A stretch of 64,000 nucleotides of DNA, taken from positions 62,001 through 126,000 of the forward strand of contig DUBB01000010.1 of NCBI GenBank assembly GCA_012960535.1. Reading direction: 5' to 3'. Both the position numbers and the translations under genes were made by a program. The notes below the pieces were generated by a model that did no database searches, had not been told where the DNA came from, and worked only from the letters and a program-made list of their open reading frames with translations. This stretch comes from Gammaproteobacteria bacterium. Its GTDB lineage: Bacteria; Pseudomonadota; Gammaproteobacteria; Pseudomonadales; Azotimanducaceae. This document shows positions 22,137 through 37,691 of this stretch, piece after piece. Position 1 is the first letter of the stretch, and every line of letters begins with the position of its first letter.

Positions 22137-23038
22137 CAGTTATCATCCTCATCACTGAAATACAGGCGCATTGGGTTTTCGACTAATAGCTTGCGCCGAA
22201 GCTCAACGGTTGTCGCCACTTTGGGGATAAAATCCACAAGTTTTCCATCGTCCGGCATATGGCTTTTCATATTGGGATGCGGCCAATCCGTTCCCCAAAG
22301 CACTCGATCCGGAAATTCATTAATCACTTTTTTTGCAAATGGAATCACGTCCTGATAGCCATGCGGACCTGTCATTGACAGACGCTCAGGGCAACTGACT
22401 TTTGACCAAAAATTTTCATTGTCTCTGAGAAGGGATAGAAATAACTCGAATTGAGGGTCTTCTACACCCTTTGCAATATCGGGTCGGCCCATGTGATCAA
22501 CAATAATGGTGGTGGGAAGCGATTCAAAAAAATGATACAGCTCTGCGAGTTCCTGAGCTTCAAAATAAATCACAATATGCCAGCCCAGTTCCTTAATTCT
22601 TGCAGCAATTCGAGTCAAATCATCGAACGGCAAAGCATCTATCAGGCGTCTTACAAAATTAAAACGGACACCACGCACGCCCGCTGAGTCCAGGGCTTCA
22701 AGTTCTGAGTCCGATATGTCGACTGAAACACTGGCAACGCCTCGCGCCATACCATTGGCAGACAACAGGGCATCTACCAGCGCACTGTTATCGTTGCCGT
22801 GGCAGGTGGCCTGAACAATGACATTTCGCGAAATGCCCAAAAAATCTCGCAGCTGCCAAAGCTGCTGCTTGGAAGCATCGCAGGGCGTATACTTTCTGGT
22901 TTTAGCAAATGGGAACTGTTGCCCGGGACCAAACACATGACAGTGGGCATCTACCGCACCGTCAGGCAGACTGAACCGGGGTTTTGATGGGGCTTGATGC
23001 CAATGCAACCAATCTGCATCAGGCGTAAATGAATTCAT
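22136..23038 (-). CDS. ligI: 2-pyrone-4,6-dicarboxylate lactonase
   Basis: Hydrolyses the pyrone PDC to 4-oxalomesaconate. 300 aa from the ATG at 23038, chosen because GAGG precedes it and the family start (MNSFTPDADWLHWH) follows; a TTG eight codons earlier lacks a site. Amidohydrolase_2 fold with VDAHCHVFGPG (about 28-38), DHMGRPD (about 190) and WGTDWPHPN (about 250). The ATG overlaps the ligJ stop in ATGA. Confidence 0.93.
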
Positions 23039-24054
23039 AGCCCTCTGCCTTTGAGTAGCCAATCCATACGCGGGTAAACCCGTCTGGCATTACCTTCAAA
23101 TACCTTATATTGACTGGTATCGCTTAAATCAAGAGCATCAATGTAACGCTTGGTGTCATCAAAGTACTGGCCTGTCTGGGAATCAATGCCCCTGACGGCA
23201 CCAACCATCTCTGAACCAAAAAGAATGTTGTCAATATCAATGACTTCAAACAGTAAATCGATACCTGGTTGATGATAGACGCAGGTGTCGAAGAATACGT
23301 TGGTCATCACGTGCTCAGTCAACGGGGGGCGTTTTAGCATATCCACAAGACCCCGGTATCGCCCCCAATGATAAGGGACTGCCCCACCCCCATGCGGTAT
23401 GATGAATCTAAGATCCGGGAAATCCTTAAACAAATCACCCTGGATAAACTGCATGAACGCTGTCGTATCTGCATTGATGTAATGCGCGCCCGTGGCATGG
23501 AAATTGGGATTACACGAACTGGAAACGTGGATCATGGCAGGGACATCCAGTTCAACCATTTTTTCGAAGAAAGGATACCAGGATCGATCCGTCAACGGCG
23601 CTGCCGTCCAATACCCGCCAGAGGGATCGGGGTTTAAGTTACATCCGACAAAACCCAGTTGCAAAACGCAGCGCTCCAGTTCTCTTATGGATTGTTGTAT
23701 GGATGTTCCTAGGGATTGCGGCAGTTGGCATACGCCGATGAAAGATTCCGGATAAAGGTCGACCACCCGCTTTATAAGATCATTACAAGCGCGCGACCAC
23801 TGCTGAGCGAGAGCATCATCACCAATGTGATGCGCCATGGCGGAAGCCCTCGGCGAAAACAGAGTCATATCTGCGCCTCTCTCAGCCAGCAATTTCAACT
23901 GATTCTGCTCAATACTCTGTCTAATCAGGTCATCGCTAATGTAGGGGATCTCAGGTAACACCAGGCCCTTATCATAAGCCGCGATCTGAGCCTCACGGAA
24001 TTGCTGGTGGGGTTCTGGAGCGGTTGTATAATGGCCATGGCAGTCAATAATCAT
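23035..24054 (-). CDS. ligJ: 4-oxalomesaconate hydratase, amidohydrolase type
   Basis: Adds water to 4-oxalomesaconate to give 4-carboxy-4-hydroxy-2-oxoadipate. 339 aa from ATG 24054 (MIIDCHGHYTTAPEP), which matches the family start; a longer frame to 24090 would overlap galD. Metal motif DCHGHY (3-8), PHGGGAVPYHWGR (about 223-235) and FGSE (about 280) are visible. This is the LigJ amidohydrolase type, not the unrelated GalB (PIG-L fold) of Pseudomonas. Sits between galD and ligI. Confidence 0.92.
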   Translation of the reverse strand: MIIDCHGHYTTAPEPHQQFREAQIAAYDKGLVLPEIPYISDDLIRQSIEQNQLKLLAERGADMTLFSPRASAMAHHIGDDALAQQWSRACNDLIKRVVDLYPESFIGVCQLPQSLGTSIQQSIRELERCVLQLGFVGCNLNPDPSGGYWTAAPLTDRSWYPFFEKMVELDVPAMIHVSSSCNPNFHATGAHYINADTTAFMQFIQGDLFKDFPDLRFIIPHGGGAVPYHWGRYRGLVDMLKRPPLTEHVMTNVFFDTCVYHQPGIDLLFEVIDIDNILFGSEMVGAVRGIDSQTGQYFDDTKRYIDALDLSDTSQYKVFEGNARRVYPRMDWLLKGRGL

Positions 24055-24070
24055 TGTATTTTCTTTCTGG

Positions 24071-25186
24071 TTAGTTGGCTTTGATGGCAACTGGATTGCC
24101 CTCAGGAATCATCACTTCGCCTCTCATTAACAACCTTGCAGTTCTTAACAGAGCTGCCCGTTGTACAGTAACCACCCCGCTGGCAGAAAACTTCAATTGC
24201 ATTTCCACTGAAAAGGAACCCGACGGATGTTCAACTGCATACTCCCTGACAGATTCGGCATTGGACAGACTGCCACTCACCATCGCGTAGGCCAGCGTAT
24301 CCGGGATCAAACAGGCGGTAGCGACACTGACAGAACCAAGTACGCCAATGGCCTCATGAACTCGATGTGGAATGAAGGTACGCGTATTGATCAAGCCACC
24401 ATTTTTCGCGGGTGAGATAAGACACATCTTGGGTACCGTTTTCGCTTTCACATCTCCAAGGTTCATGCGCTGGCCCACCTTCAAGCGGATGTTCTCCAGT
24501 CTGGACTTTAGCGTCTGATCTGACTCGAGCTGCTCAGGCGTCTCATAACCCGACAAGCCAAAATCAACCGCCCTCATCAACACCACCGGCATACCATTAT
24601 CAATACAGGTGACATCAACACCTTCCAGGTTTTCCATTGCCTGACCGGTCGGCAGTAGCGCTCCGCAGCTGGACCCTTCTATGTCTGTGAACTCAATACT
24701 GACAGGAGCAGCGGCACCCGGGACACCATCTATCCGTGTCGTTCCTGAGTAACGTACCGCATTACCGGGAGTTTGGACTCGGGCAACTGCCTGAGCACCC
24801 GTATTATCAAGATAGATTCGAACATCGGTGCTGTCTCCGCTCGTTTCAACCAGGCCCTGTTCAATGGCAAAAGGACCTACTCCCGCAAGAATGTTGCCGC
24901 AGTTCTGATTCGTACTGACTTCAGGCTTTTCAAGCGCTACCTGTAAGAACAGATAATCGACATCCACATCTGGTTTTTCTGATTTTCGAACCACAGCAAC
25001 CTTGCTGGTGAGCGGATGGGCCCCACCCAGGCCATCTATTTGCCTCTCATCGGGAGAACCCATAGCTGCAAGGAGCACCGCATTGCGTTCCCGTTCGTCT
25101 AGCGGCAGGTCCTGCTCCAGGAAAAATAATCCTTTTGAGGTGCCCCCTCTATACAGTGAACAGGGTATGGCTTGCTGAGTCGTCAT
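24071..25186 (-). CDS. galD: 4-oxalomesaconate tautomerase, PrpF/GalD family
   Basis: Isomerises 4-oxalomesaconate keto/enol or allylic forms so that LigJ can act; the SYK-6 counterpart is LigU. 371 aa with the two-domain diaminopimelate epimerase-like fold. PrpF-family blocks include [14 protein letters not shown] at the N-terminus, [18 protein letters not shown] (about 113-130) and [15 protein letters not shown] (about 293). The ATG overlaps the ligK stop by 4 nt, and 16 bases separate its stop from ligJ. The GalD-versus-LigU label depends on which reference is used. Confidence 0.9.
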
Positions 25187-25875
25187 TCTTCCTCCGCATT
25201 AAAACTGACATACTCAATTCCCTGCTGCTTTAACCGCTCACGCATCTTGTAGATATCCAAACCTAATTCCCCCTGTGCCAATCGACGGCGGACAGCCAGT
25301 TCATTTTCCATGCGACGCTTCATTTTTACAGCGACTTCATCACCCAAGGCTCGCGGTACTACCACTACCCCATCGTCATCAGCGATCACAATATCTCCTG
25401 GGTTGACCAGCTGACCAGCGCAGACTATAGCAACGTTAACATTGCCCAGCGTCTCCTTAACTGTTCCCTGTGCAAATACGGTCTTTGACCACACCGGAAA
25501 CCTCATTTCAGTCAAGCCAGCGATATCTCGCACTCCTGCATCAATGACAAGCCCGCGAACACCTCTTGAGATAAGGGAAGTAGCCAGGAGGTCCCCGAAA
25601 TAGCCATCATCACAGGGGCTCGTTGGCGCGACCACTAATACATCTCCAGGCTGGCACTGTTCTACCGCCACGTGAAGCATCCAGTTATCGCCGGGTGTAA
25701 CCTCGCAGGTAACCGCCGGCCCGGCTATCCTGGCCGGACGAAAGATCGGCTTCATGTAGGCTGCCAGCAAACCCTTTCGACCCTGCGCCTCATGAACGGT
25801 AGCCACCTCGGCATCTTGAAACTTTGCCATAGTCTCTTTTTTCGGGCGGGGTATATCAGTGACGCAGGTTGCCAT
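25183..25875 (-). CDS. ligK: 4-carboxy-4-hydroxy-2-oxoadipate aldolase / oxaloacetate decarboxylase
   Basis: Last catabolic step: cleaves CHA to pyruvate and oxaloacetate. 230 aa, RraA/HMG-aldolase fold, the same size as LigK (about 228). Signature [13 protein letters not shown] (about 25-37), [21 protein letters not shown], and [18 protein letters not shown], which holds the Arg and Asp of the metal/substrate site (about 103-120). ATG with AGAGG 8 bases upstream. First gene of the seven-gene lig operon. A T-N11-A dyad lies about 145 bases before its start. Confidence 0.93.
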
Positions 25876-26019
25876 AATTTAAACCTCTATTTAATGAACT
25901 AGATTCGAAAATCAGAGATCAGCCTTTTTAAAATGAATTACTCAAAACCCGTCCCTCACCCGGACTGGGCTCAAACCCTTTGATATTGAGCTGCTGTTCC
26001 ACCCCTCTCTGCACCTTAA

Positions 26020-26032
26020 TCATGGTTCATGA
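26020..26032. promoter_or_regulatory. Putative LysR-type operator before ligK
   Basis: TCATGGTTCATGA is a T-N11-A box with perfect inverted arms (TCATG/CATGA), extended by one matching base on each side. It lies about 145 bases upstream of ligK. In SYK-6 the ligK-led operon is under the LysR-type LigR, so the position makes sense. No such regulator gene lies next to the operon here. Confidence 0.45.
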
Positions 26033-26100
26033 TGGTGACCACTTATCTTCAACAAAGCAAAGATTAGCTTACCCATTCAATCGCCATTAGCCAGAGCCGG

Positions 26101-26117
26101 CTGACCTGAAAGGTCAG
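26101..26117. repeat. Short perfect inverted repeat between pobA and ligK
   Basis: Arms CTGACCT and AGGTCAG around GAA form a stable 7-bp stem on either strand. It lies downstream of pobA. The absence of a T run argues against a simple intrinsic terminator; it could be an operator or an mRNA 3' hairpin. Confidence 0.45.
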
Positions 26118-26199
26118 TCATATGAGCCTGATAGCCACACTACTGGCTAAGCGCTGCAACACCGTACCCGCAAATCAACGACCTGTGCAGCAAATCTCC

Positions 26200-27372
26200 T
26201 CAATAGGGCAAGCCTACATAACTTTCGGCAAAAGACATGCGAGCGGCCTGAGATGTCGCCAGGTATTCAAATTCAGCTTCGCGAATTCTGTTGCTAAATG
26301 CACTGCCATCTTCATAAAAATCATGTAGCAATCGCGTCATTGACCAGGAAAATCGACTGGCCTTCCATACCCGGTCCAGCGCCCTCTGCGAATAATTATC
26401 CAACCCTTCAGTCGCTTTATTCTGATAAAACTCAGATAGCGCCTGCGACAGATAGCGCACATCAGAAACCGCCAGATTCAAACCCTTGGCACCCGTGGGT
26501 GGAACAATGTGTGCCGCATCACCCGCCAGGAACAGTGAGTTCCAGCGCATGGGCTCGCACACGAAACTTCGTAACGGTGCTATTGATTTCTCGATTGAAG
26601 GCCCTGTAATTAAATTCCGAGCAGCCTCTGACGGCAAGCGCGTATTCAGCTCGCTCCAGAACCGGTCATCCGGCCAATGATCGACCCGCGCGTCAAGCGG
26701 GACCTGGATATAGTACCTGCTTCTTGTTTTTGATCGCATTGAACACAGGGCAAAACCGCGCTGATGATAAGCGTAGATGAGCTCCTCGGACACGGGTGGC
26801 GTTTCCGATAGGACACCTAACCATGCAAAAGGGAAACTGGACTGATATTCACGTTTTACCTTGCTGGGTATGGCCGCTCGGCTCACGCCATGGTAACCAT
26901 CACAGCCAATCACAAAATCACAATCAAGCGTCTTGGCCTGCCCATCGTGATGGAATTGGATTTTTGGCCTTTCAGTATCAATACCGGCCAAGGTGACATC
27001 CGTAGCCTTGTGCAAAATACGGCCTCCGGTTTTCTCACGCGCCTGGTAAAGATCCCGGGTGACCTCAGTTTGCCCGTAAATCGTCATCTTCGAGCCAGTA
27101 AGCTCAAAAAAATCAATTCGGCAGTTTCTACCCTTATAAACAAGCTCAACCCCATCATGCTCCAGCCCGTTTTTATTCAGGCTGGCAGCCACCCCAGCCT
27201 GCTGGAGCATTTGCACTGTTCCCCGCTCTAACAGGCCGGCGCGAATTCTGCCCAGAACATGTTCTCGAGAATGCTTTTCCAGGACCACACTCTCGATTCC
27301 ATTGACATACAGTAATTGGGACAACAGTAACCCTGCGGGCCCGCCGCCGATAATTCCTACTTGTGTCTTCAT
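26200..27372 (-). CDS. pobA: 4-hydroxybenzoate 3-monooxygenase
   Basis: FAD- and NAD(P)H-dependent hydroxylase that makes protocatechuate from 4-hydroxybenzoate. 390 aa, close to the 394 of Pseudomonas PobA. The FAD motif GIIGGGPAGLLLS sits at the N-terminus, then the ribose/NAD(P)H motif CDFVIGCDGYHGVSR (about 150-164) and the second FAD motif GDAAHIVPPTGAKGLN (about 282-297). It feeds the adjacent lig operon and lies downstream of an AAHS-family permease on the same strand, 606 bases away. Confidence 0.94.
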   Translation of the reverse strand: MKTQVGIIGGGPAGLLLSQLLYVNGIESVVLEKHSREHVLGRIRAGLLERGTVQMLQQAGVAASLNKNGLEHDGVELVYKGRNCRIDFFELTGSKMTIYGQTEVTRDLYQAREKTGGRILHKATDVTLAGIDTERPKIQFHHDGQAKTLDCDFVIGCDGYHGVSRAAIPSKVKREYQSSFPFAWLGVLSETPPVSEELIYAYHQRGFALCSMRSKTRSRYYIQVPLDARVDHWPDDRFWSELNTRLPSEAARNLITGPSIEKSIAPLRSFVCEPMRWNSLFLAGDAAHIVPPTGAKGLNLAVSDVRYLSQALSEFYQNKATEGLDNYSQRALDRVWKASRFSWSMTRLLHDFYEDGSAFSNRIREAEFEYLATSQAARMSFAESYVGLPY

Positions 27373-27978: not shown

Positions 27979-29280
27979 CTATCGCTGAAAGGCTCTGGCC
28001 TTCAAAAAAACAAGCACAATTGCGGCCACTACAGAACCAAAGGCCATAAACGTTGCAACAAGTGAGAGCCCGTAACCCGCTGTAAATAATATGCCAGCGA
28101 TGATAGGACTGGCGGCAGCGCCACCACGGCCAAGGCCTATGGAAAACCCGGTTCCACTTGCTCTCAGGTTATCTGGATAGTGATCAGCAAAAAGTGCATA
28201 CAAGCCAACGACACCGCCATTAATAAAAAAACCTGCAATACACGCTACTGCCGATAGCTGGTCTAACTCTGAATACCCTTTGCCAAATACATAGATCATT
28301 ATGGAAGACATGACCAGCGCAACAAACATCAGGTTTCGAGTTGCAAAGCGACTGGACAGCAGGCCAAACAGAATTGAACCCGTCAGCATACCCAAATTTG
28401 CCCAGACCAAGACTCCGCCCGCCGATGAGGCTGAATAGCCCATATCTACCACAATTTTTGGCGTCCATTTGAGCAGAAAATAAAGCGTCATAATATGCAT
28501 AAAGTAGGCTACTGTAAGCACAATCGTGGTTCGCAACATCGCAGGCTTAAACAGTTCGAGAAGGGACGTTTTAGGCTTCTCAGTAACATCAGGCAAAGCA
28601 GCAATAGGTTCTTTGCCCATTTTTTTCAAGCTGGAATTAATTCTAACCAGCGAATCGGTGCCGCGCTGAATGGTATGGTAAGCCACAGATTCAGGAACCA
28701 GAAACCAGACTAAAGGGAAAAAAGAAATCGTGGCGATTGCCCCAAATTCAAAAATGGCGCGCCAGCTGTCGTGTGCTAGCAGGCCGGAAGCGATCGTTCC
28801 ACCAATAACCACGCCGAGGGGATAACCGCCTGCCATCAGCATCACACACAGACTGCGGTGCCTACGATTTGAAAATTCAGCGACCATGGCGTTGGTGGTA
28901 GCCAACATACCGCCTATAGCGAGCCCAGTGTAAAAACGATGAACCGACAACTCGTTTACCGACTGGGCGCCACTGGCAAAATACATCCCCATTGCCATTA
29001 CGGCTAAACAAAAGAGAATAATGGGCCGGCGGCCAATTTTATCGGCAACGTTTCCGAGAATAACCGAACCCACCGCCATGCCCATTAATTCCATGGAGAG
29101 TACAACGCCTAAGACTGCACGATTGATCTCAAACTCCTGGGCAATCCCAGGTGATGCAAAGGCGATTGATAAAACATCGAATCCATCAAGAGCATTGAGC
29201 AAGATGCACATCATTACAACGATTATCTGCATCCACGCCATCGGCGAATTATCAATTAAACTACCGGGATTGTTGTTCAT
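27979..29280 (-). CDS. AAHS-family MFS permease (4-hydroxybenzoate/protocatechuate, PcaK-like)
   Basis: 433-aa inner-membrane MFS carrier with 12 TM segments. The TM1 motif NALDGFD is the aromatic acid:H+ symporter hallmark, and GNVADKIGRRPII (about 78-90) is the MFS loop 2-3 signature. PcaK-like carriers take up 4-hydroxybenzoate and protocatechuate. Position upstream of pobA and lig on the same strand supports that role. ATG preceded by a weak site. Confidence 0.87.
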   Translation of the reverse strand: MNNNPGSLIDNSPMAWMQIIVVMMCILLNALDGFDVLSIAFASPGIAQEFEINRAVLGVVLSMELMGMAVGSVILGNVADKIGRRPIILFCLAVMAMGMYFASGAQSVNELSVHRFYTGLAIGGMLATTNAMVAEFSNRRHRSLCVMLMAGGYPLGVVIGGTIASGLLAHDSWRAIFEFGAIATISFFPLVWFLVPESVAYHTIQRGTDSLVRINSSLKKMGKEPIAALPDVTEKPKTSLLELFKPAMLRTTIVLTVAYFMHIMTLYFLLKWTPKIVVDMGYSASSAGGVLVWANLGMLTGSILFGLLSSRFATRNLMFVALVMSSIMIYVFGKGYSELDQLSAVACIAGFFINGGVVGLYALFADHYPDNLRASGTGFSIGLGRGGAAASPIIAGILFTAGYGLSLVATFMAFGSVVAAIVLVFLKARAFQR

Positions 29281-29614: not shown

Positions 29615-31155
29615 TCAGGTCGTATCGACCCGGGCTTCCTCTGAAACAGCCTGCTCGACACTAATCCACTGAATACAGTTCCTGCCCGCGGATTTCGCCT
29701 GGTAAAGCCCCTTATCAGCTGTGTTAACGACCGTTCGCAGATTCAACTCCAACGAGGGCATGGCTGTGGTTAGCCCACGCTGATGGTCACCACAGGCGCT
29801 GTGGGTGAGCTGCTATGCGAAATATTAAGCAACTCCACCGCCCTTCGGCAGGATTCAGTGATTTCCATGGCACCCACTTGTGTGCAGTCTGGTAATACCA
29901 GTAAGAATTCCTCGCCACCATATCGAGCTACAAAATCCGAATCGCGGCGCAGCGCATCCCGCAGCGCTATTGTTACTTGGATCAAACACTGGTCACCGGA
30001 CTGATGTCCATAGGTGTCATTGAAGTTTTTGAAATGGTCAACATCAAACAGCGCAACGGTCAGAGGGAGTGTGGGGTAGATTGCTCGGCGCCACTCGACT
30101 TCAAGGACGCGTTCCAGCTCCCGACGGTTTGGAATTCCGGTCAACGAATCCAGGCGGACTGTCTTCTGAAGGTGATCCCGGCGTGTCTTGTTGGTCAAAT
30201 GCACGCGCACTCGCGCATGGATCAACTGCGTATCAGCAGTGGTCTGGAAGTAACCGGCAGACCCACTTCGAAGAAATTCCAATTCCCGTGTCGGATCAGC
30301 ATTCTGGTCAACGACCATAATAGGAATATCCGCCGCAAGCGGTGCCTTCCGGAGCTGATTGCAGGGGGATAAAGCATCGTCGTCCTGAGTTGAAGGCAGC
30401 AGTAGAAGGTCAGGCCGAAGGCCATTTTCTACCCGCTTCAGAGCCCAGGAAATATCCGCAGCCGCCAGCGAATCACTTCGGGTTGAAGCGCATCAATGAG
30501 ATGCCAGATCGCTGTTGGATTGCCCATAACCAGGACCACGAGGCCAGGCACAAGCTCGCACACACCACTGGGTTCCCCTGCCGGTTCGCGTCCTGCCAGA
30601 AATCATTCTATATCCCTAGGGGCGCTTAATCCGATCAGACTGCGACTGTCCGATGCAGTCATGATAGGGATCCGCCGATCAGGATCCGCTGCCTGCCACT
30701 GACTCTGGAATGCAGTCAATTGGGCTTTCCCGTTCGAAGCGATCTGAGGCATATCAATGCCCAGTTCTGCCAGCAGGTTCGCGATAACCTCATCATTAGA
30801 AATATCCAGCCCTTCTGCCCAAAGTGCCTCAAAAACACGAGCGCGGAATTGCTGCGCCGGCAAAACATTTTGGTTTAACAGCGCTATCAGGATCAAATTA
30901 GCTGGGCCTGAATCAGGCCGTCGTTGCGGCATGGAGATTGCGACCTCAGGCTCCCTGTGCCGCACTGTAAATACCTCCGAGGCCAGCTGCGCCATGTCCT
31001 CCACATTAGCCAGGTTCATCTCGTTGGGAACATGCTGTATAGGTCGCCACTCGATGTCCTGACAGTCTTTGTATAGATGCAAACGCTCCTCAAGCGCATA
31101 ACAAAAAGGAAAATTAAAATCACCAAAACCTGAAAGAACATCATAGTAAGGTCAT
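29615..31155 (-). pseudogene. Broken DsbA-like / receiver-like / GGDEF diguanylate cyclase gene
   Basis: Pieces of one protein lie in order on the minus strand but in different frames. A DsbA/thioredoxin-like part (about 31125-30606, from FPFCYALEERL to SAPRDIE) ends in TGA at 30603. The frame goes on with VLVMGNPTAIWHLIDAL, then shifts near 30470-30500 into RPDLLLLPS and a receiver-like end. It continues through DSLTGIPNRRELE and the active-site RYGGEEF of a GGDEF domain. It stops at TAA 29770 after TISVG, where loss of one base shifts the rest (ADKGLYQAKSAGRN, down to 29615). The first ATG (31155) is also out of frame. The GGEEF motif is intact, but the gene cannot make the full protein. 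Clustered sequencing errors are the alternative. Confidence 0.72.
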
Positions 31156-31442
31156 GTCTTTTTTCCTATTGTTAAAATCCAGCTACTGCCCATAGGGAGA
31201 CCTTATTCTCGTTCAGCACCTATCATCCAGACAAATAACCATGAATATCCGAACTAGATAAACTAATATATCCAATGGCATTTTATAAAGACCGGACATG
31301 CAAATCATTTTTCATCTTCAATCGTTGACTTGACACCCATATGGAGAGCTAATGGAGCGTATCCTTGGCTGCCAAATCAGATATCTGGGCAGGACAGAAG
31401 AAAGAACCCTATTCTTGCCTTACCGCCAACAGCAGGTGATCC

Positions 31443-32390
31443 ATGAACAGCAAACAAACTGCCGCCTTCACTGAAGAACATGACATTGCCGTACCCTACA
31501 TGCAGAGACTGCGCGACTATTATCTTGCTCTGGGTTACTCAAACCCCTATCGCTGGGCTCAATACGCCGATGTTCCGTTTACGCCTTTAGGTATCACCCT
31601 GGATCAAGCCAGGGTAGCCCTGATCACAACGGCTGCTCCTTTTAAGGAAGGCGCAGGCGATCAAGGTGCTGGTGCAGTCTACAATGCTAAGGCAAAATTC
31701 TACAAAACCTACAGCCAATCAACCTCAAACCCGGGTTTCCTTGGAATCTCACACCTGGGTTACGATAGAAAATACTCTACCGCCGCTGACCTCAATTCTT
31801 TTTTCCCGCTTAACGCCCTGACGGCGGCGGCCCAGCAGGGTCGTATCAAGGCGGTTGCAGCACGGTTCTATGGCACGCCAACCAATAGAAGCCAAGTCAC
31901 CACTATTGAACAGGATTGCGTTGATCTACTGGCCCTGCTTACAGAGGATGAGGTCGATCTAGCTATTCTTACTGCCAACTGACCTGTCTGCCACCAGACC
32001 GTGAGTCTGACAGCCAGGTATCTCGAGGCCCATGGTATCCCAACGGTTATCCTAGGCAGTGCCAAGGATATCGTTGAGCATTGCGGGGTCCCGCGATTCG
32101 TCTTCAGCGATTTTCCGCTCGGCAACTCGGCAGGCAAACCAGATGATCTTGACTCCCAGACAGCGACACTGGAACTCGCCTTCAGAATGTTAGAAACAGC
32201 GCCGGCGCCACGCACCACTATCCAGTCGCCGCAGCGCTGGTCCGCCAGTTCAGATTGGAAGCTGGACTTCCAGAATGTAGATCGCATAGCCGATGCCGAG
32301 ATAAAAAAAAGACGGGTCGAATTTGACAAGATCAAGGCAATCGGTCAGAAAGTGAGAGACCAGGCGCTGAGTAATCAAACCAAGAACTAG
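31443..32390 (+). CDS. Selenoprotein, glycine/sarcosine/betaine reductase selenoprotein B (GrdB-like) family
   Basis: One 315-aa frame with an in-frame TGA at 31980-31982 (codon 180). The reading continues without another stop to TAG at 32390. The junction reads TAN-U-PVCHQTVSL, a UxxC redox motif in which the selenocysteine of GrdB/PrdB-type proteins is expected. Both halves look like one family: ARVALITTAAPF and LGISHLGYDRKYS before the TGA, IPTVILGSAKDIVEHCGVPRF and FSDFPLGN after it. A SECIS-like hairpin follows the TGA directly. Conventional ORF calling would split it into a 179-aa protein and a GTG-started 129-aa protein. Family members reduce amino-acid derivatives or act as oxidoreductases; the substrate here is unknown. 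Decoding needs SelA, SelB, SelC and SelD elsewhere in the genome. Confidence 0.88.
31983..32018 (+). promoter_or_regulatory. Bacterial SECIS-like hairpin
   Basis: Immediately 3' of the in-frame TGA. Inner stem CAGAC (31995-31999) with GTCTG (32005-32009) closes a five-base loop CGTGA. Outer pairing CTGT (31984-31987) with ACAG (32010-32013) leaves a bulge on the 5' side. The loop starts 17 bases after the TGA and has a G at its second position, both within the published bacterial SECIS consensus as I remember it (16-37 bases, G in the first two loop positions). The element is also coding. Confidence 0.7.
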
Positions 32391-32711
32391 CGCCGCAACG
32401 CTAGGGCTGCTTGAACCGTGTGTCAGCTATGAGAAGGGCAACACTGTAATTCGCCACGACCAGGATAATCAGCTCTTTCTGGCAATTGGGCAGGTACCGA
32501 TCAGTAGCTGGTATTGCCCCCTAGGGCAATGTTCGGGTTGACCCAATCTTGCCAGGTGCTACCTGATCCACTGCAAAGAACCTATCAATTGCATAAAAGC
32601 CGCGCCACTATCAGGCCGCTCAGAATGATTTCATAAATCTGCAGGCGATGCCCTTACAGACATCTCGCTGTGCTAGAGTGCGTGCTAGAGTTTAACGATT
32701 TATGAAGTTTA
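32391..32711. other. Intergenic region after the selenoprotein gene
   Basis: 321 bases between two plus-strand genes. An inverted repeat CTAGCG-CCGCAA-CGCTAG (32387-32404) spans the selenoprotein stop codon but is not followed by T residues. The last 60 bases before 32712 probably carry the promoter of the MFS gene. No gene seen. Confidence 0.45.
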
Positions 32712-34025
32712 ATGAGCAATATTTCCACTTCAGCGTTGTTTCCACCCCGCTACAGAAACTATGCCCTTGGAGTTCTATTCCTGGGATACGTGGTTAATTT
32801 TATTGATCGTTCGATCCTGGCAATCCTGCTGGAACCCATCAAGCATGACCTGAGCCTCTCTGATTCAGAACTCGGGCTGTTGGGAGGACTGGCATTTGCC
32901 CTGTTTTACGCAACCCTGGGCATTCCCATTGCAGCGCTTGCTGATCGCTGGTCTCGGGTAAAGGTACTTGCCATCTCGATGATAATCTGGAGTGCCATGA
33001 CCGCCCTGTGTGGTATGGCATCTAACTTCATTACATTACTCATAGCAAGGATTGGTGTCGGCGTTGGCGAGGCTGGAGCCAGCCCACCCTCGCACTCACT
33101 GATATCCGATTACTTCCCCATCGAATCGCGGGCCACCGCCTTATCTATTTACGCGCTTGGCATCCCATTTGGGTCCATGGTTGGAAACTTCGTTGGTGGC
33201 TGGGGCGCCGAAGAACTCGGCTGGCGTACGACTTTTTTCCTGGTCGGCATTCCAGGGATTCTGGTAGCGTTTTTAATCCTTGCAACGCTAAAAGAACCGC
33301 CCAGGGGACTTTCAGAAAAACGCGAAATTAAAGCAGACAGTACTGCGCCCCCGACAATGAAGGACGTATTTAAATTTCTCTGGACCAAAAAATCATTCCG
33401 CCACATCGGCTTTGCTGCGGGCCTACATGCTTTTGTGGGTTACGGGGCAGGCACCTGGAACGCACCCTTTTTAATCAGAAGTCATGAAATGCCCATTACC
33501 GAAGTCGGTAGCTGGTTAGCTATTATCTCTGGCATCGGTGCTATCGGAACTTTTGCTGGCGGTTATCTCGGTGATAAAATCTCTGATAGAACGGGTGATC
33601 GCCGCTGGTATCTCTGGGTCTGCGGCATATCCACTCTGATCATGGTGCCTTTCCAGCTGACTGCTTACCTGTACGACGAACTGTGGGCAGTTATCCCATC
33701 ACTATTCGTGGTATCGATTCTCGGCGGCATGTATCTTGGCCCCTCTTTTGCTATGACGCAGGGGTTGGTCACACTCAGGATGCGGGCGGTAGCATCGGCC
33801 ATTTTATTGTTCATGCTGAACATTATTGGCATGGGACTGGGGCCCTATTTTGTAGGTATTGCCAGCGACCTGCTAGCACCCAATTTTGCCATTCACTCGC
33901 TACGCTACGCCCTGTGCATGGCAGTACTGGCGAATTTATGGGCAGCGTCCCATTATTTTCTTGGCGCGCGGACGCTGCGCGAAGACCTTGGCGATACCGA
34001 AGCTTTATTGAAGCAATCAGCTTGA
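32712..34025 (+). CDS. Spinster-type MFS transporter
   Basis: 437-aa inner-membrane MFS carrier with 12 predicted TM segments. The N-terminal segment YVVNFIDRSILAILLEPIK (about 26-44) and the block GEAGASPPSHSLISDYFP (about 117-134) are typical of spinster-like (Spns) carriers, often found beside aromatic or lipid catabolic genes. The substrate is not predictable. Monocistronic in appearance, downstream of the selenoprotein gene. Confidence 0.85.
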   Translation: MSNISTSALFPPRYRNYALGVLFLGYVVNFIDRSILAILLEPIKHDLSLSDSELGLLGGLAFALFYATLGIPIAALADRWSRVKVLAISMIIWSAMTALCGMASNFITLLIARIGVGVGEAGASPPSHSLISDYFPIESRATALSIYALGIPFGSMVGNFVGGWGAEELGWRTTFFLVGIPGILVAFLILATLKEPPRGLSEKREIKADSTAPPTMKDVFKFLWTKKSFRHIGFAAGLHAFVGYGAGTWNAPFLIRSHEMPITEVGSWLAIISGIGAIGTFAGGYLGDKISDRTGDRRWYLWVCGISTLIMVPFQLTAYLYDELWAVIPSLFVVSILGGMYLGPSFAMTQGLVTLRMRAVASAILLFMLNIIGMGLGPYFVGIASDLLAPNFAIHSLRYALCMAVLANLWAASHYFLGARTLREDLGDTEALLKQSA

Positions 34026-36416: not shown

Positions 36417-37691
36417 TTACCTTATCTGCTGTATCGCCTGATCCAGATCAGCAATCAGGTCTTCGATATTTTCTATACCAACAGAAAGCCGCACTGTATT
36501 GTCCGCAATACCGGCTTTTTCCCTTTCTTCTCTGGGTGTCGCACTATGCGTCATGCTGGCAGGATGCTGAATCAGACTATCCACGTTACCCAGGCTCACG
36601 GCAAGCGTTGGAATGGTCACAGCATTGGTAAATATCATACTATTTTCTAAACCACCGCTAACCTTAAATGACACCATGCCGCCGAATCCATTGATCATCT
36701 GCCGCTTTGCCAGATCATGATAAGGATTATCAGGTAGACCAGGATAGAACACCGCTTCGATCTGAGCTTGCTCCTGCAACCAGGTGGCCACCGCCAGGGC
36801 ATTGTCAGCGTGCTTCTGCATCCGCACTTCAAAGGTTTTTAAGCCAACATTTATCAGCGACGTATCTGTAGGGCTTGGCGCGACCCCCAGCATTTTATAG
36901 GTCAGACCAACGCCATTACCACCGGGGGCCATATAATCAAGGTGGGTGCTAACGATGGCACCACCGATAACCTGGCCATGACCGCTGATATACTTTGAGG
37001 TGGAATGTAGAACTACATCACAACCGAAGGTTAGCGGGCGCTGGTGGTAGGGTGTGGCGAAGGTATTATCAACCATAACCCAGATATCCTGTGCATGCGC
37101 GATCGTTACAAGATGTGCCAGATCCACAATTTCAATATTCGGGTTTGAAGGTGTTTCGAGAAAAATCATTCTTGCATCAGTATTTTCAGAAATTACCCGG
37201 GTAAGGCTTTCTGGCCTGACATCAGTGAACCAGACCACCTCTATGCCAAGACGGGGAGCGAGCTCATACCACCACTTGAAGCTATTACCATACAAGCCGC
37301 GTTGCACAATGGCCTTGTCGCCACTGCCAATTTTTGCCAGCACCGCCGCCGAGGTCGCGGCCATACCTGAAGAGGTTACCTTTCCTGACACAAGTTCAGA
37401 CGGATCAATATCAGGCTGTGATCGAATCAGATCGATACCTTCCATATAAGCGATCTTGTTTGCCAGATGATCCATATTCGGGTTGTGGGTTCGTGTATAG
37501 GCATAACCCTTTTTCTTGCCAGCAAATACATCACCTGCCTCTTGCACCGTGTCAAAGCCAAAGGTTGAAGTCTGATAAATAGGCATGAGATGGGCGTGTT
37601 TGTCATGACTGCCCTCTCCCACGTGGTTAACGATGGTACCCATACCATGTTCTGGCTTTACTTTTTTCCCCGTCATGCTGGTTTCCTGCAA
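36417..37691 (-). CDS. Cys/Met-metabolism PLP enzyme (methionine gamma-lyase or O-acetylhomoserine sulfhydrylase type)
   Basis: 424-aa fold-type I PLP enzyme. YAYTRTHNPNMDHLANKIAYMEG (about 48-70) and the PLP lysine in HSTSKYISGHGQ (about 231-242) are family signatures; MVDNTFATPYHQRPL precedes it. The family holds methionine gamma-lyase, cystathionine lyases and OAH sulfhydrylase, which sequence alone does not separate here. Sitting between mtnP and a permease, it could reuse methanethiol or release it. It is 39 bases downstream of mtnP. Confidence 0.85.
   Translation of the reverse strand: MQETSMTGKKVKPEHGMGTIVNHVGEGSHDKHAHLMPIYQTSTFGFDTVQEAGDVFAGKKKGYAYTRTHNPNMDHLANKIAYMEGIDLIRSQPDIDPSELVSGKVTSSGMAATSAAVLAKIGSGDKAIVQRGLYGNSFKWWYELAPRLGIEVVWFTDVRPESLTRVISENTDARMIFLETPSNPNIEIVDLAHLVTIAHAQDIWVMVDNTFATPYHQRPLTFGCDVVLHSTSKYISGHGQVIGGAIVSTHLDYMAPGGNGVGLTYKMLGVAPSPTDTSLINVGLKTFEVRMQKHADNALAVATWLQEQAQIEAVFYPGLPDNPYHDLAKRQMINGFGGMVSFKVSGGLENSMIFTNAVTIPTLAVSLGNVDSLIQHPASMTHSATPREEREKAGIADNTVRLSVGIENIEDLIADLDQAIQQIR

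Follow-up and report, generated by a model that had tools for sequence, protein, structure and literature searches.

A putative selenocysteine-containing PrdB/GrdB homologue with no PrdA- or GrdE-type partner detected in its draft genome

Reading of the in-frame UGA

A gene at 31443..32390 (+) of a 64-kb window (the whole stretch of DNA analysed, C10:62001-126000 of the source genome G000) is interrupted by one TGA codon, which raises the question of whether it encodes a single selenoprotein and, if so, in which kind of reaction such a protein would take part. A sequence-only reading had held that the frame is broken solely by the TGA at codon 180, that automated callers would report two proteins and that the UGA lies in a U-P-V-C redox motif, and all three points were borne out. 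With the TGA read as Sec, a single 315-aa frame runs to a TAG stop and has codon 180 (31980..31982, +) as its sole internal TGA; a plain ORF list made without recoding gives two pieces of 179 aa and 129 aa. The UxxC motif is supported by homologues, in which Cys occupies the second motif position in 82/82 loci. This residue, Cys183 (TGC, 31989..31991, +), is likely the resolving thiol. A possible ribosome-binding site, AGGTG at 31434..31438 (+), was read from the sequence 5' of the ATG.

Coding on either side of the TGA is indicated by the comparison of the window gene with its relative L027, to which it is 82% identical: the differences per codon position are 29/18/76 before the TGA and 14/9/55 after it. 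Past the TGA, 44 codon changes are synonymous and 19 are non-synonymous. Judged by these substitutions, coding constraint persists 3' of the TGA in the window gene.

We then compared codon 180 across 82 homologous loci and found TGA in 32, TGC in 38 and TGT in 12, with no other codon. Homologues thus have either Sec or Cys at this place (TGA in 32/82, Cys in 50/82), and the reading frame continues in the Cys homologues. The ratio of Sec to Cys is biased, because the loci are the best-scoring 80 of 322 relatives plus two plasmid records, and because one of the six scan patterns represented the motif with Cys. One locus (L028) has an ambiguous residue beside Sec, and in three others (L051, L060 and L076) a further TGA, close to residue 300 of the match, was taken as the normal stop. 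An order-level scan covered 293 whole genomes and gave 28 matches in 16 of them, 28/28 with exactly one internal TGA; a phylum-level scan covered 398 and gave 21 matches, again in 16 genomes, with one TGA in 6 and no internal stop in 15. TAA or TAG, either of which would have spoken for a genuine stop, occurred neither at codon 180 in the 82 loci nor inside the matches of the two scans.

The source genome, a draft of 4.24 Mb in 53 contigs that is 93.6% complete, contains all four Sec genes looked for: SelA (569.7 bits, cut-off 268), SelB (425.8 bits, cut-off 242), SelD (255.3 bits, cut-off 125) and a tRNA-Sec (49.8 bits in Rfam, gathering 47) with the anticodon loop CUUCAAA. All lie on contig C42, where selA adjoins selB and the tRNA-Sec gene adjoins selD. 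ARAGORN called the tRNA-Sec gene (L011:1501-1589, -) a tRNA-Lys; this call was set aside for the Rfam assignment, and a scan of that type could miss the Sec trait of this genome. The SelD match (L023, G000:C42:133749-134645) lies inside an open frame of 746 aa, far beyond the 311-position model, and this frame is possibly a fusion.

A search of 31000-33000 against Rfam matched no family, and a hairpin just after the TGA, at 31995..32009 (+), was therefore tested separately. With the T of the TGA numbered 0, bases 15-19 (CAGAC) and 25-29 (GTCTG) form the stem around the loop CGTGA. All five pairs form in 48/55 Sec genes vs 2/50 Cys genes. This count covers the 105 of 110 loci that have the motif as searched; the other five (L120, L122, L130, L131 and L133), each with one internal TGA in the order-level scan, were left out of the hairpin, neighbour and codon counts. 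When codons were resampled synonymously from each gene's own usage (2000 draws), the Sec genes gave a mean of 3.1/55 and a maximum of 8, so that no draw reached 48, and the 2/50 of the Cys genes was at chance, being reached by 727/2000 draws. One of the pairs is A-T in 41 sequences, T-A in 7 and broken in 7; the swap accompanies amino-acid changes, and the two-sided change is perhaps a single event. GC content does not explain the hairpin, since at loci of at least 60% GC the codon in its 3' arm is AGT in 17/18 Sec vs 1/34 Cys genes; AGT makes up 6/282 of the other Ser codons within the same Sec genes. The location of the hairpin and the GU in its loop resemble the E. coli fdhF element. The comparative evidence points to a bSECIS-like element serving Sec decoding.

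Taken together, the SelA/SelB/SelD/tRNA-Sec set, the restriction of codon 180 to TGA or Cys codons and the Sec-specific hairpin make the Sec reading, as originally proposed, well supported. From these sequence data there is little doubt that UGA 180 is decoded as Sec, and the case for a selenoprotein gene is well supported. That the TGA is instead a true stop, through a pseudogene, a sequencing error or two separate proteins, agrees with the two pieces of standard ORF calling, but is extremely improbable given a TGA at the same codon in so many loci, the single internal TGA in every order-level match, selection on both sides of the TGA, the hairpin and the Sec machinery.

Family placement, partner subunits and paralogues

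The gene product had been assigned to a GrdB-like family. The superfamily part of this assignment stood, as PF07355 scored 36.1 bits against a gathering value of 22, the match being confined to positions 206-346 of its 347; within the superfamily, however, the protein is nearer to PrdB than to GrdB and below the equivalog cut-offs. The PrdB model TIGR04483 was the top NCBIfam model with 88.3 bits, under its equivalog cut-off of 300, and the models for sarcosine GrdF (44.6 bits), betaine GrdH (43.5 bits) and glycine GrdB (38.7 bits) each scored below cut-off, as did the broad protein-B subfamily model (40.4 bits, cut-off 65.45). TIGR01917 reached 38.7 bits vs a cut-off of 602.2, matching profile positions 221-422 of 431, and the window protein also scored below the cut-offs of TIGR01918, NF040794 and NF040795. 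The match to NF041046, the UGSC family (seleno)protein, was 14.5 bits (E 0.027), under the cut-off of 125. The GrdB match of the window protein is limited to the C-terminal half, and the window TGA aligns with the TGA codons of E. raffinosus PrdB and P. acidaminophilum GrdF. The two relatives from plasmid records, 58% and 49% identical, have Cys for Sec and are annotated 'glycine/sarcosine/betaine reductase selenoprotein B family protein'. Sequence comparison thus identifies the window protein as a homologue of PrdB and of the C-terminal half of GrdB.

Canonical enzymes of this kind have partner subunits, and the earlier claim was that none is encoded here. The PrdA proprotein model TIGR04480 had no match in the source genome (draft, 93.6% complete) and matched 0/45 of the relatives' genomes, drafts of unstated completeness, which are those of 45 out of the 80 best-scoring loci; a control in the same search gave 969.5 bits. 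This model matched 3/3 control records, 2 of them above cut-off, and also sees GrdE-type subunits, since it scored 84.9 bits at the P. acidaminophilum place annotated grdG. The claim is supported, in this draft genome, for the GrdE-type subunit, with working controls; for GrdA (PF04723), likewise without a match in the source genome, the model was run without a positive control. A PrdA/GrdE-type subunit appears to be missing in these draft genomes.

These searches bear on whether the protein is simply PrdB of an ordinary D-proline reductase whose PrdA is encoded elsewhere or was missed. Although PrdB is the best NCBIfam model, its Sec site lines up with the one in E. raffinosus PrdB, and passages of marine selenoproteome papers label such proteins PrdB, we regard this as very unlikely, as the score of 88.3 bits stands against a cut-off of 300, PrdA had no match in the source genome or 45/45 relatives' genomes with positive controls working, and long branches, of unsure placement, part the family from PrdB in the tree described below. 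As the protein apparently functions without any PrdA/GrdE-type subunit, it most likely belongs to none of the D-proline, glycine and betaine reductases, and we are fairly confident that it is not a canonical Prd/Grd reductase.

The gene had also been described as standing alone. This is true of the locus, but four further Sec paralogues exist in the same genome, and many relatives have a CoA-transferase gene downstream (see below). A protein search detected all five copies, each with one TGA: the window gene on C10, C31:24784-25554, C8:121618-122385, C43:2661-3464 and C31:61858-62556; a Pfam search detected three of the five. One paralogue has U-P-L-D in place of U-P-V-C, with Asp for the second Cys, so by its sequence a resolving thiol would not be universal in the family. 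This UPLD paralogue (L002:1-1875, G000:C31) overlaps its downstream gene by 4 bp, and the overlapping gene reads like a SAM-dependent methyltransferase.

A quick ML tree was built from 105 members of the family, PrdB and GrdF serving as the outgroup. It requires three changes between Sec and Cys, two of them imposed by well-supported branches; Sec occurs throughout the outer branches, the Cys forms are nested, and long branches leave the root unsure. An AlphaFold2 model built from 45 sequences (mean pLDDT 91.3, pTM 0.90) places residue 180, modelled as Cys, between a strand (173-177) and a helix (183-196) that begins with Cys183. Foldseek against the PDB gave no match at E ≤0.001 (best 0.016). 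The best VIA-align matches (Z 8.5) were LacI-type and Rossmann-like chains over residues ~50-275, which we read as a common arrangement only. A methyltransferase matched in a PDB sequence search at E 0.56 was taken as chance, and a PDB search with the alignment gave no match, an absence that shows little.

The position of the UxxC/CxxC motif at a helix start would also suit a general thiol/selenol disulfide or peroxide reductase for redox maintenance or stress, in which UxxC acts as in thioredoxin or peroxiredoxin. Five diverse Sec paralogues within one genome fit such a role, as does the aerobic life suggested by oxygenase-type neighbours (an FAD monooxygenase in the window, a Rieske oxygenase and a P450 in relatives). 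The homology, however, lies with the Grd/Prd family, and none of the families matched is of thioredoxin type; the alignment of 45 sequences has 58 invariant columns (K85, H104, R109, N148, R149, H184, D209, E212 and R218 among the residues concerned), as for a substrate pocket; one paralogue is without the second Cys; and no recurrent stress-gene neighbour was noticed among the identified neighbours, which are a minority. We therefore consider a general redox role unlikely. A role in an aerobe other than anaerobic amino-acid reduction is plausible, and our preferred explanation remains a reductase of the Prd/Grd superfamily.

Gene neighbourhoods of the family

A first clustering of neighbours was swamped by apparent shadow ORFs in GC-rich loci. 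A codon-position filter gave 16 adjacent CoA-transferase genes but left gaps of ~1.2 kb in other loci, and the count was therefore redone with tblastn, using four query proteins that belong to the resulting set. Among 105 loci examined, 100 have at least 600 bp downstream, and in 38 of these 100 a family III CoA-transferase gene (PF02515) lies directly downstream on the same strand, near-copies being counted singly; the linkage was not seen in the other 62. Linked loci divide into 19/54 Sec and 19/46 Cys loci, come from Gamma-, Alpha- and Betaproteobacteria, Rokubacteria/Methylomirabilota and one actinobacterial bin, and show a 4-bp overlap of the two genes in 15/38. The CoA-transferases are alike in 36/38 loci (at least 58% identity to a query), with more distant forms in L099 and L103 (33% and 39% identity). 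Pairwise identities of the reductases and of their CoA-transferases are correlated, with r 0.80 for all 38 loci, 0.91 without L099 and L103, and 0.80 for 18 loci thinned to <80% identity, each value being reached in 0/2000 permutations. This fits inheritance of the two genes as a unit, by descent or transfer. The Cys form with an adjoining CoA-transferase gene occurs in named strains of Belnapia and Siccirubricoccus, which makes a reading based on CoA testable.

The window lineage has a different arrangement. No adjacent CoA-transferase gene was found in the window or in its nearest relatives L071 and L027, the 64-kb window has no significant CoA-transferase match, and among 37 CoA-transferase matches in the source genome none exceeds 38% identity to the linked group. 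CoA activation is thus argued from relatives and may not apply to the window gene. Here, an MFS transporter gene (PF07690, 32712..34025, +) follows 321 bp downstream, with a similar place in L071 and L027, and it is uncertain whether it belongs to one unit with the selenoprotein gene. By tblastn (E 1e-20), this MFS gene is found beside the reductase gene in the window, L071 and L027 only. As a partner across phyla it was rejected: the MFS gene of L104, which follows a reductase gene and its CoA-transferase gene, is ~32-35% identical and not an orthologue.

Families were looked up for 30 chosen neighbour proteins, and these are mixed: symporter, sulfatase, TauD, EamA, amidase, P450, AMP-ligase, S/N-oxide reductase, Sir2, peptidase, enolase and others. 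A sodium:solute symporter gene lies downstream in ten loci (L031-L035, L039-L041, L046 and L108), including bins of the K189A clade; four of the ten have a sulfatase gene immediately upstream, three have TauD at that place, and in seven a Glyoxalase_3-type gene lies further downstream. This symporter context is a second recurrent neighbourhood, without a CoA-transferase.

Several other genes were observed along the way. In the window, Amidohydro_2, PrpF, RraA-like and FAD_binding_3 genes are consecutive at 23035-27372 (-), a row that we take to look like a 4,5-cleavage protocatechuate/gallate pathway (LigJ/LigU/LigK/PobA), and another MFS gene is nearby at 27979-29280. An ORF with a GGEEF motif at 29770-30318 (-), read from its translation, is probably a diguanylate cyclase domain. 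A Cys/Met metabolism PLP-dependent enzyme is encoded at 36417-37691 (-), and genes of the same cluster lie near L132 (another paralogue), L036 and L066. On a Roseomonas plasmid (L025:9878-11350), the Cys homologue is arranged tail to tail with a gene annotated SelO.

Proposed chemistry and comparison with known systems

We propose that the window gene encodes a Sec protein homologous to PrdB and GrdB that acts as a single-chain reductase without a PrdA/GrdE-type subunit. Leaving the substrate chemistry aside, we find this explanation as a whole reasonably likely. UGA 180 would be decoded by the genome's own SelA, SelB, SelD and tRNA-Sec, aided by the hairpin immediately 3'. The Sec180 selenolate would attack a polarised carbon of a small carboxylate, at a C-heteroatom bond alpha to an activated carbonyl; the leaving group would depart, Cys183 would resolve the selenoether to a selenenyl-sulfide, and cellular thiols would re-reduce it. 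In many relatives, the substrate would probably be activated as a CoA thioester by the product of the downstream CoA-transferase gene.

The CoA-transferase gene directly downstream in 38 of the 100 loci suggests that the protein could be a selenol/thiol reductase acting on activated carboxylates independently of PrdA. In the canonical systems, PrdA and GrdE presumably supply a pyruvoyl carbonyl. CoA-activated reductive cleavage by the family is a tentative possibility. A more specific form of the idea seems doubtful to us: that the marine 'PrdB' proteins and their Cys relatives are separate, O2-tolerant, single-subunit reductases of CoA-activated carboxylates, in which CoA replaces the PrdA/GrdE-type subunit, an alpha substituent is removed from CoA thioesters and a dedicated family III CoA-transferase is encoded by the next gene in many carriers. 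Among the open-licence papers searched, we found no mention of a CoA-transferase link to the family; queries on this link or on GrdB/PrdB-like naming returned nothing, or papers that, judged by title and abstract, deal with clostridia or rumen Synergistota. Polarisation of the C-N bond in Grd systems is ascribed to a Schiff base. Passages of one paper call the activating carbonyl of GrdB systems unidentified and suggest a modified Ser of the STUG motif in GrdB as its source instead (PMC10838667). Loss of the partner subunit may therefore not alone exclude amine substrates. No STUG-type Ser two places before Sec was found in the family loci listed.

Sec in this family is not new. Excerpts of a Sargasso Sea metagenome study report 42 'Proline reductase PrdB' selenoproteins with UxxC (PMC1088965), and those of the GOS survey count 235 Sec and 110 Cys sequences of 'PrdB', an abundant selenoprotein (PMC2398784). 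In a later set, proline reductase makes up 6.4% of selenoprotein genes (PMC9402790); the enzyme is counted among bacterial selenoproteins elsewhere (PMC1794560, PMC5029168), and the name D-proline reductase is kept in the reviews as excerpted (PMC13188914, PMC9312934). The Sec itself was thus expected, and what is of note is the missing partner together with the CoA-transferase neighbour. 'PrdB' is among the more abundant sea-water selenoproteins (PMC2398784). It is named after an enzyme of anaerobic clostridia. If the PrdA-independent reading is true and the marine sequences are the same family, a sizeable share of marine selenium use would serve an undescribed reaction.

Among known systems, PrdB (TIGR04483) is homologous, and its Sec falls in the same alignment column (UGTCH in the E. 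raffinosus protein, UPVCH in that of the window), with 28.5-31.0% identity among the matches listed. It differs in that the window protein is far below the PrdB cut-off, is longer (315 aa vs 241 aa in E. raffinosus) and has no PrdA match in its own or the 45 relatives' genomes. GrdB, GrdF and GrdH (PF07355, TIGR01917/01918) belong to the same superfamily and share UxxC, with Sec at the aligned GrdF codon; in the window protein, by contrast, the match to GrdB is confined to the C-terminal half and falls under the cut-offs, and the genome has no GrdE-type match and no GrdA match, the latter from a model without a positive control. The marine 'PrdB' family is alike in its UxxC with Sec, in its occurrence in marine bacteria and in its GOS listing under pfam07355, and the window gene, matched by this published description, probably belongs to it. 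It is unlike in being named PrdB, and the passages seen leave a missing PrdA and a CoA-transferase neighbour unmentioned; the usual name misfits the gene content of the family. Lastly, the FarB protein of the Cloacibacillus porcorum fluoroacetate reductase operon is, like the window protein, a GrdB-like selenoprotein, with an MFS gene in its operon. It differs in coming from an anaerobe, in having a FarE component and in being predicted to feed a GrdA/GrdC system (PMC10838667). According to passages of the same paper, fluoroacetate strongly induces this operon, including the MFS transporter gene, and C-F cleavage is proposed (PMC10838667). By analogy, these induction data suggest that GrdB-like chemistry may reach beyond amino acids.
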